A stretch of DNA of 54,916 bases from Porphyromonas sp. (lineage in GTDB: Bacteria > Bacteroidota > Bacteroidia > Bacteroidales > Porphyromonadaceae), in the NCBI GenBank assembly GCA_030529525.1, contig JAUMWS010000002.1, forward strand, positions 1-54,916. Reading direction: 5' to 3'. A model generated the notes under the pieces. It ran no database searches, was not told the DNA's origin, and was given only the letters and a program-made list of their open reading frames with translations. Both the position numbers and the translations under genes were made by a program. Below, one piece after another: positions 25,100-27,409 of this stretch; the first letter of the stretch is position 1; each line of letters begins with the position of its first letter.

Positions 25100-25163
25100 T
25101 TCTGAATTTTGAGGTTTTCTATGGTTATGTAATCTCTTTAACCCAAGCCCGAAGGCTTCTCTA

Positions 25164-25194
25164 CAAAGATACTATTTTTTGTTGATGAGTGTAA
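25164..25194 (-). promoter_or_regulatory. Promoter of the 9-kb minus-strand operon
   Basis: Read on the minus strand: TTA at 25194-25192, 20-nt spacer, TATCTTTG at 25171-25164. The start would be near 25157, about 58 nt before the DUF4837 gene. Confidence 0.65.
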
Positions 25195-25286
25195 GCGTTT
25201 ACTTAGCGCTTTCACCCCTTGAAAGGGGCGCGAAGATTGATTTCGGACTTTCATCTTTTGAGTGATTGCTTATCGCCCTCTTTCGG

Positions 25287-25449
25287 AGCTCCATTTTTAT
25301 ATATTCCATCCCACAAAGGCGGTTTGTTTTTTCCGTCTCTCTATTTTGTTCACTATGGCTGTTCGGAGAGGGTAACCAAACTGTTAAATCCACCCTGTTT
25401 TATTAACACTAATTTCAAATCCTATTAAGCAAAAACAGTAAACGAATAT
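25287..25449 (+). repeat. Dispersed ~160-bp intergenic repeat, copy 2
   Basis: Plus-strand partner of the minus-strand copy at 1-164. Identical blocks include ATTTTTATATATTCCAT, TCTCTCTATTTTGT, GAGAGGGTAA, AACTGTTAAATC and TTAAGCAAAAAC. It lies just upstream of the DUF4837 operon promoter, as copy 1 lies upstream of tnaA. Confidence 0.7.
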
Positions 25450-25462
25450 ATTTTTTCGGCTT

Positions 25463-25538
25463 AACGGGTTTAATTTTTCAATGAACCCGTTTATCGATTT
25501 CATTTAACACGTTAACCTGATTCACTAAACGTGTTAAA
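25463..25538. repeat. Two adjacent hairpins built on GTTAA-type arms
   Basis: AACGGGTT (25463-25470) pairs with AACCCGTT (25484-25491). TTTAACACGTT (25503-25513) pairs perfectly with AACGTGTTAAA (25528-25538). They lie in non-coding DNA directly after repeat copy 2. A 12-bp perfect palindrome TCCCTTAAGGGA follows further on at 25839-25850. Between these, 25539-25838 is AT-rich with no convincing ORF. Confidence 0.6.
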
Positions 25539-25903
25539 CTTTTCACCTCAAACTATTGACTATTAGCAATTTATCGTTTTTCGCCATAAAAAGTGCATTT
25601 TAGGGAGAATTTCTCTATTTGGAATTATTCACACTTATGGGTGTTAAATTTTATAGTTATTAACTCAAAAACAGCCCTTAAAATCGGATAGGAGGAGAAA
25701 AAATCGAGAAATCGGAAAAATCATAGACCGCTAATTATCAATAACATATAAGACAAGATCAAAAATGCGTAAGAGATAAGAGAAGAAAAAAAGAGCATTT
25801 CAGAGCCTGATTTTAGAACTCTATTTTTATATAAAAGTTCCCTTAAGGGAGATTTCAAGACAAGAGAAATCGCTTTCAATAGACGAGAAAAACAAGAGAA
25901 ATT

Positions 25904-25978
25904 ACAACCAATATCGGTTGTATTTTAAGATTACAACCAAAAACGGTTGTTTCTAAAAATACAACCGGAAATGGTTGT
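25904..25978. promoter_or_regulatory. Three tandem palindromic operators ACAACC-N6-GGTTGT
   Basis: Three copies with identical arms lie at 25904-25921, 25933-25950 and 25961-25978, with centres 29 and 28 nt apart. Only the six central bases differ. The third copy contains the TTG of the promoter that drives the SatD-family gene. A dimeric DNA-binding protein is implied; the HTH-like C terminus of the SatD product is the nearest candidate. Confidence 0.8.
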
Positions 25979-26005
25979 TTTTATAGCTAGTTAAAGTTAT
26001 CTTTG
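25975..26005 (+). promoter_or_regulatory. Promoter of the SatD-DUF3307 operon
   Basis: TTG 25975-25977 (inside operator 3), 20-nt spacer, TATCTTTG 25998-26005: a full match. Start near 26012, 22 nt before the gene. Confidence 0.82.
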
Positions 26006-26033: not shown

Positions 26034-26678
26034 ATGGATATAAGAGGAGTCATAACGGGCGATATTGTCGCTTCCTCGGCTATACGGGCAGAGTATCGGG
26101 ATATCCTGCCGGGAGGAATTGAAGAGATTGTCCAAAAGCTGAGCGCAGTGCTATCTCCTGCAAAGATGGAGGTTTTCAGAGGCGACAGCTTTCAGATTGT
26201 TGTGGAGCGTCCGGAAGAGACAGTACGGATGGCGGTGCTTCTTCGTGCCGGCATTAAAGGGAAAACTCCCGAAGAGGTAAAGCGACCATGGGACGTAAGA
26301 TTGGCGATAGGAATAGGCGAAATATCCTATCTGTCGGACAAAGTGGTGCTGTCCGATGGCGAGGCATTTCACCTTTCGGGCAGAGAATTGGACGACATAG
26401 GGAAACGCCGCCTTACGGTACGCACCAGATGGGAGGAGCTAAACGAAGAACTGGAAGTAAGCACAGCTTTTGCAGACGATATCATCTCTCGATGGACTGT
26501 ATCCCAAGCTAAAGTTCTCTACGAAGCTCTACTCCATGGCACAACCCAAAAAGAGATGGGGCTGAATATGGGAATGAGCTCCCAAAATGTGGGGAAACTG
26601 CTGAGAGCAGGCAAGGAAAACCTTATAGCTCTCTACCTGAACCGAACCCGCAAAATCATAAAAAACAGACTGGTATGA
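26034..26678 (+). CDS. SatD-family protein with C-terminal HTH
   Basis: The 214-residue product starts with the SatD hallmark ITGDIVASS. It continues with a cyclase/nucleotide-binding-like alpha-beta domain (FRGDSFQIVVERPEE, VRLAIGIGEISYL, GEAFHLSGRELDDI) to about residue 145. The C-terminal 60 residues are helical and HTH-like (TVSQAKVLYEALLHG, TQKEMGLNMGMSSQNVGKLLRAGKENL). SatD function is not well established. The HTH and the three operators over its promoter suggest autoregulation. Its stop overlaps the start of the DUF3307 gene (ATGA), so the two are translationally coupled. Confidence 0.8.
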   Translation: MDIRGVITGDIVASSAIRAEYRDILPGGIEEIVQKLSAVLSPAKMEVFRGDSFQIVVERPEETVRMAVLLRAGIKGKTPEEVKRPWDVRLAIGIGEISYLSDKVVLSDGEAFHLSGRELDDIGKRRLTVRTRWEELNEELEVSTAFADDIISRWTVSQAKVLYEALLHGTTQKEMGLNMGMSSQNVGKLLRAGKENLIALYLNRTRKIIKNRLV

Positions 26679-27409
26679 GTTGGGATATTCTTTTAAAGCT
26701 GCTTTTGGCGCATCTTCTTGCAGACTTTGCACTCCAGCCAAAGAAGATTTGCGAAGGGAAAAGAGCTCCCGGAGCCGGGAAGTGGAGCTACCTGCTTCTT
26801 CATTCTTTCATACATGCCGTAGTCGTCTATCTCCTATTGCAAGATTGGAGTGGCTGGCTGGTACCCGCCATAATCTTTGTTTCCCATTTGGGTATAGACT
26901 ACTTCAAATCCACCTGCATGAGGGAAAATGCAACATCATTCCTGATAGATCAGGCATTGCACGTGATAGTGTTGATGCTGATATGGGGGTTCCTATTCGG
27001 CGGAACGGATATTTTCAGCGAATGGCTGGGAGAGTACGAGATGCCTTCCGGCTTTTGGATTGTAGCCATAGCTTATGTACTGGTGCTTAAACCTACTTCA
27101 CTCGTGTTGAGTATGTTTTTCAAGAGATGGAATAAAGGAACAGAAGAGATGAGTCTTCAGAAAGAAGATGAGAGCCTGCCCAAAGCAGGAGAGTGGATAG
27201 GCTATCTGGAACGCGTGCTTATACTTACGTTCATCTTTACGGGACATATAGAGGGAGTGGGATTTCTGCTTGCAGCAAAGTCTGTATTTCGATTTGGAGA
27301 CCTAAGCAAGGCGAAAGATATCAAAATAACAGAGTATGTTCTTATAGGAACATTGGGTAGCTTTACCATTGCCATAATAGTAGGTTTTATCTCTTTGGCT
27401 ATAATATAA
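26675..27409 (+). CDS. DUF3307-family membrane protein
   Basis: The 244-residue inner-membrane protein starts with the DUF3307 signature LLLAHLLADFALQP. It has a conserved HSFIHAVVVYLLL and SHLGIDYFKS in the N half and about six membrane helices overall, with a soluble stretch at about 150-170 (RWNKGTEEMSLQKEDES). Conserved His and Asp residues in the first helices recall a membrane metal site, but no activity is known. It overlaps the SatD-family gene by 4 nt; this pairing recurs in other bacteria as far as I recall. Confidence 0.82.
   Translation: MSWDILLKLLLAHLLADFALQPKKICEGKRAPGAGKWSYLLLHSFIHAVVVYLLLQDWSGWLVPAIIFVSHLGIDYFKSTCMRENATSFLIDQALHVIVLMLIWGFLFGGTDIFSEWLGEYEMPSGFWIVAIAYVLVLKPTSLVLSMFFKRWNKGTEEMSLQKEDESLPKAGEWIGYLERVLILTFIFTGHIEGVGFLLAAKSVFRFGDLSKAKDIKITEYVLIGTLGSFTIAIIVGFISLAII

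Follow-up and report, generated by a model that had tools for sequence, protein, structure and literature searches.

The promoter of a satD-DUF3307 gene pair in Porphyromonas sp. is overlapped by an array of three inverted repeats (dyads) with identical arms, and dyad arrays with a pitch of 28 or 29 nt precede most satD genes analysed, their letters varying together with the recognition helix of SatD. Most probably, the palindromes are SatD operators of an operon repressed by its own product, with the palm domain of SatD as the likely switch and the DUF3307 membrane protein as the likely effector. The SatD and DUF3307 families, neither of which has an assigned function, occur together across phyla and on small plasmids; the only functional hints found for the pair were an acid-tolerance name and a transposon screen, and the literature searched yielded nothing on how SatD is regulated or what DUF3307 does. 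The array supplies a regulatory logic for the pair, a putative DNA-binding role for SatD and a residue-to-base code.

Dyad array and promoter of the Porphyromonas locus

The window (the whole stretch of DNA analysed, 54,916 nt) belongs to a Porphyromonas close to P. canoris. Three perfect dyads upstream of satD carry the arms ACAACC and GGTTGT around the spacers AATATC (operator O1, 25904–25921), AAAAAC (O2, 25933–25950) and GGAAAT (O3, 25961–25978), with centres 29 nt (O1 to O2) and 28 nt (O2 to O3) apart, exactly as described in an earlier reading made from the sequence only (the sequence-only reading). O3 spans the -33 element of a Bacteroidota-type promoter, the TTG core of which (25975–25977, + strand) lies inside the dyad, as had also been recognised; the -7 element TATCTTTG (TAnnTTTG; 25998–26005, + strand) follows 20 nt after this TTG. 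The same reading had called the promoter perfect, which holds for TAnnTTTG and for the TTG core and fails for the -33 element, where GTTG is found instead of TTTG and the consensus is matched at the TTG core only. It had also placed the promoter 22 nt before the satD gene, a figure that suits a start point ~6 nt downstream of the -7 element and not the end of that element, 28 nt upstream of the satD ATG (26034). With the HTH protein SatD encoded directly downstream of dyads that overlap the promoter, the locus has the layout of an autoregulated operon. Between a DUF4837 gene and the array there are ~800 bp (25100–25900) without an assigned gene.

Within its own assembly (1.87 Mb, 89% complete), no ACAACC-N6-GGTTGT sites with up to one mismatch were found besides O1 to O3. 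Elsewhere in the genus, the P. canoris-type genome has three exact copies, all before its SatD gene, and one other Porphyromonas genome has a single copy. More generally, the arms hardly occur outside the satD promoter in the genomes tested; a search for single sites had been proposed to define a regulon, but few lie outside this promoter in the tested genomes, and no wider regulon was seen.

satD is present in 5 of 38 genomes of the family. P. canoris, with a SatD 81% identical to that of the window, carries a matching array of three dyads with the window's arms, 28 and 28 nt apart, in the equivalent position. Of three more distant Porphyromonas orthologs, two are preceded by arrays of different arms (TTGATT type) at a 28-nt pitch; the remaining one shows a single clear site next to its promoter, with a weaker site 28 nt upstream of that. 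The flanking genes of the window are shared by P. canoris; at the other three loci no ORF near satD and DUF3307, beyond the pair itself, matches the window, which suggests that satD and DUF3307 travel together.

Fixed-pitch arrays upstream of satD genes

Arrays were scored in the 250 bp upstream of satD as a pair of mutually repeated dyads with a lag of 24 to 36, with significance taken from 200 dinucleotide shuffles per stretch (threshold p ≤ 0.05; lowest possible p 0.005). The first set comprised 69 SatD loci of the order Bacteroidales, with three control stretches per locus, and the held-out set 45 SatD loci outside Bacteroidales in the same class. An array was found at 53/69 loci of the first set (controls 1/68, 2/69 and 3/69), with 47/69 at p 0.005 and a best lag of 28 or 29 in 51 of the 53. 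Among 49 well-scored arrays of this set, 35 have three sites, 11 have two and three have four. The held-out set gave an array at 42/45 loci, all 42 with a lag of 28 or 29 (controls 3, 2 and 0 of 45). Both sets together yield a repeated dyad array at 95 of 114 SatD genes versus 11 of 341 control stretches, with 93 of these 95 arrays having 28 or 29 as their best spacing.

Palindromes, the absence of which before orthologous operons had been named as one argument against the sequence-only reading, are present at most of them, in Bacteroidota and in several Proteobacteria. Conservation of the arm sequence across orthologs, which had been expected, was rejected: spacing and dyad symmetry are kept, while the letters vary and change with the protein.

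The longest array, in one genome (G755), has 13 copies at an exact 29-bp pitch and ends ~45 nt before satD; another genome has six copies at 28 bp. The 29-bp palindromic unit of the former (L133, G755:C17:70469-70845) contains a -7-like TATATTTG in most of its 13 tandem copies, and the array superficially resembles a CRISPR but lacks spacers. Among plasmid loci, those in Vibrio, Salinivibrio and Pseudoalteromonas have arrays with lag 28 (p 0.003 to 0.01), an E. coli plasmid has a weaker one (lag 28, p 0.03) and an Enterobacter plasmid has two clear CAACC/GGTTG dyads (lag 29, p 0.16). A Segatella plasmid has only a direct repeat (lag 31) far upstream, and no array was found in the upstream stretch scored for a Sphingomonas plasmid.

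The 19 of 114 SatD genes without a significant array include most of an EttA-like group and most satD genes that stand alone; SatD is therefore not always in the dyad-array arrangement, and such genes may be controlled from another promoter. In the former group (L016, L023, L024, L026, L030 and L035), the upstream DNA resembles the end of an EttA-like ABC-F gene, there is mostly no array at the start of satD itself, and DUF3307 begins 120–230 nt after satD. Another subgroup (L041, L045, L046, L048 and L050) has neither a DUF3307 neighbour nor a 28–29 nt array.

In genomes other than that of the window, the last operator often covers or abuts the -7 element (centre to TAnnTTTG 6–8 nt). Distances from the last-operator centre to TAnnTTTG appear to fall into clusters near 6–8, 16–18, 23–28 and 37–38 nt, about one helical turn apart.

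SatD and DUF3307 proteins

SatD (26034–26678, + strand; 214 aa) belongs to PF16264 (31.4 bits, cut-off 29, residues 7–207). In the AF2 model (pLDDT 97), a class III cyclase/GGDEF-type palm domain (residues 1–150; 26034–26483, + strand) is followed by a C-terminal HTH (residues 156–192; 26499–26609, + strand), predicted with high confidence, in line with the HTH-like C terminus noticed previously. The recognition helix comprises residues 183–192 (26580–26609, + strand), of which 183, 185 and 188 co-vary with operator bases.

The palm/cyclase fold is seen both in structure comparisons (Foldseek E 2.9e-5 to guanylyl cyclase 3et6; VIA Z about 11 over 125–150 residues) and by sequence, where a profile search reaches cyclases from SatD (3mr7, E 8.5e-6). 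The metal-site aspartates Asp10 and Asp51 (motif RGDSFQ) both align with cyclase motifs in the profile alignments and are kept in 108/114 and 113/114 SatD, respectively. At the transition-state positions, residue 113 varies, Asn being absent from the six residues most often found there in the 114 SatD, and Arg117 is found in only 52/114, including the window protein; SatD is therefore regarded as a relative by fold and not classed as a cyclase. Given the fold and the two aspartates, nucleotide binding by SatD is likely.

The partner gene (26675–27409, + strand) encodes a 244-aa membrane protein belonging to DUF3307 (PF11750; 84.6 bits, cut-off 23). Its start and the satD stop share 4 nt, an overlap that is predicted to couple translation of the two. 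DUF3307 follows satD at 106 of 114 loci, with the 4-nt overlap most frequent, and of the eight satD genes without DUF3307 one has an array. Conversely, among 35 full-length DUF3307 matches in 247 Bacteroidales genomes, 34 adjoin a full satD and one a satD remnant. Invariant His and Asp residues in the helices of DUF3307 (H13, D17, H71, D75, D92 and H96) are hints of a membrane metal-dependent enzyme. YdjM was weakly matched by one of 60 DUF3307 members, and a structure search found no useful solved structure resembling DUF3307.

Co-variation of operator letters with the SatD recognition helix

As the arms differ by lineage, operator letters could be compared with the protein. With the N-domain controlled, operator distance tracks HTH distance in the first set (r 0.258, p 0.0002) and in the held-out set (r 0.243, p 0.0003), although these p-values and the others of this section, permutation and Fisher alike, overstate independence since the loci are related, and are guides only. 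The correlation along SatD windows peaks over residues 181–200 in both sets; in the held-out set, residues ~91–120 nearly match this peak and a residual correlation between N-domain and operator persists (r 0.21, p 0.009). For the recognition helix alone, with N-domain and DUF3307 held constant, the correlation is r 0.36 (p 0.0005). With N-domain and HTH held constant, DUF3307 distance shows no correlation with the operator (r -0.06, p 0.86); it adds nothing, and the idea that the array is tied to DUF3307 instead of SatD was rejected.

Residue-to-base pairs were computed on half-sites in dyad-fixed registers. Gln at residue 183, the start of the recognition helix in the AF2 model (pLDDT 97), occurs with A8 in 74/76 loci and with T9 in 75/76, each of these bases being present in 4/15 loci without Gln; the Fisher values (2e-9 and 3e-10, respectively) are descriptive, the rules for residues 183 and 185 having been spotted by inspecting the first set and then all loci. 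Parsimony on an N-domain tree gives six changes of Q183, and G8 also accompanies V183 at one locus in a separate clade. Residue 188 pairs with operator position 5 and residue 185 with position 6. Within the NQH-type group, CTTATA arms accompany A, G or S at 185, and CGATA arms are found where this residue is T or V. The residue-185/position-6 signal was repeated in the held-out set, where only three loci lack Gln183. This co-variation strongly suggests that SatD itself binds the array directly, and lends support to the earlier suggestion that it does so through its C-terminal HTH.

Mobility and genomic neighbourhood

The satD-DUF3307 pair has a patchy distribution and is sometimes plasmid-borne. 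E. coli pEC34A (L125, NC_019077; 3770 bp) consists of the pair, rop, mobA and one small ORF, and this 3.77-kb plasmid is seen in E. coli and Klebsiella; as rop is present, its replication is probably ColE1-like. On a Sphingomonas insulae plasmid (L131:1-6570) the pair adjoins Pycsar-type cyclase/effector, TIR and ImmA/IrrE genes, and this stretch is likely a defence island. Neither SatD nor DUF3307 was matched by any PADLOC family at E ≤ 1, Pycsar included. A tblastn search of a phage collection with SatD and DUF3307 found no phage-borne copies, and two SatD queries gave no matches in IMG/VR.

The name satD comes from the sat locus of Streptococcus, sat standing for secretion and acid tolerance (PMC11323703). 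In a transposon screen of S. pyogenes it was the sole accessory gene (178/249 genomes) in the top essentiality quarter (PMC11323703).

Probable autorepression and alternative explanations

SatD dimers would bind each dyad, and the fixed pitch of 28–29 nt would let adjacent dimers assemble side by side. Bound at the promoter-proximal site, which covers the -33 element in the window and the -7 element in other genomes, SatD would block RNA polymerase and so repress its own synthesis. The palm domain, with its two metal-site aspartates, may bind or make a nucleotide and is the likely switch that would relieve repression; release would raise SatD together with the translationally coupled DUF3307, the likely effector.

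Autorepression, which the sequence-only reading had also proposed, is the simplest explanation because O3 covers the -33 element and the last site covers or abuts the -7 element elsewhere, the sign of control being judged only from the positions of the sites. SatD could instead bind the array and activate the operon, as an activator beside the -33 element (positive autoregulation). An array plus an HTH suits either sign, and two of the three sites in the window lie upstream of the -33 element; coverage of -33 by the last site here, and of or up to -7 in many genomes, nevertheless favours blocking, and a repressor of a harmful partner would better explain why satD, an accessory gene, is essential in S. 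pyogenes (PMC11323703), making activation unlikely.

It is considerably less likely that another host regulator binds the array, with SatD merely its regulated target. Such a regulator would have to account for operator letters that, in both sets of loci, change with individual residues of the SatD recognition helix, with the remainder of SatD and DUF3307 controlled, and for an array that accompanies satD across phyla and on plasmids. Tandem arrays of fixed pitch, with up to 13 copies, upstream of a protein with a nucleotide-type domain and an HTH, on plasmids and chromosomes alike, also recall iterons or centromere-like sites, for which SatD would be a segregation- or replication-type protein that also regulates itself. 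This is highly improbable: there are usually two to three copies, of which the last is linked to the promoter, SatD is partnered by a membrane protein, and the 3.77-kb plasmid has rop and so a probably ColE1-like replication. A role of the repeats as RNA or single-stranded-DNA hairpins, or as a terminator, can practically be dismissed, since the dyads, although inverted repeats, lie upstream of the promoter and of the expected transcription start, so would be untranscribed from the satD promoter, and have a conserved spacing that hairpins do not need and arms that track a protein helix.

The best model is that of a mobile, potentially harmful effector module autorepressed by SatD. Plasmid carriage, neighbouring defence genes and essentiality in S. 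pyogenes are in keeping with a mobile module in which a harmful partner is repressed, and satD holding down such a partner may explain why it is essential in the S. pyogenes strains that carry it and absent from others. More tentatively, and with the balance tipped slightly against it, the pair may be an undescribed mobile defence or addiction module in which a nucleotide-sensing or nucleotide-making SatD uses its HTH and a cooperative array of 28–29-bp pitch to control itself and a membrane effector, with a residue-to-base code rewritten several times in different phyla.

Comparison with known systems

A cyclase-fold domain and an HTH in one polypeptide, as in SatD, are also found in mycobacterial cyclase-HTH proteins (LuxR type), which are much larger and have an ATPase domain, the likeness being one of description only. 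Streptococcus satD is the name-giving member of the family and is accessory yet essential in S. pyogenes (PMC11323703). Pycsar (pyrimidine cyclase plus PycTM or PycTIR effector; PMC11224242) resembles SatD-DUF3307 in placing a protein of class III cyclase fold beside a membrane protein, and on the Sphingomonas plasmid the pair neighbours a gene annotated as a Pycsar effector; unlike Pycsar, SatD has an operator array and an HTH but not the canonical transition-state Asn, and DUF3307 differs from PycTM. In Panoptes/mCpol (PMC12657218, PMC12657230), a small Cas10-like palm-domain nucleotide enzyme is reported to work with an effector, a resemblance to SatD by description only; the abstracts mention neither an HTH nor an operator array. 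CapW, a CBASS regulator with a WYL domain (PMC9122588), is reported as a transcription factor tied to a self-contained and potentially harmful module, whereas SatD is of a different family and combines regulator and nucleotide-type domain in one protein.
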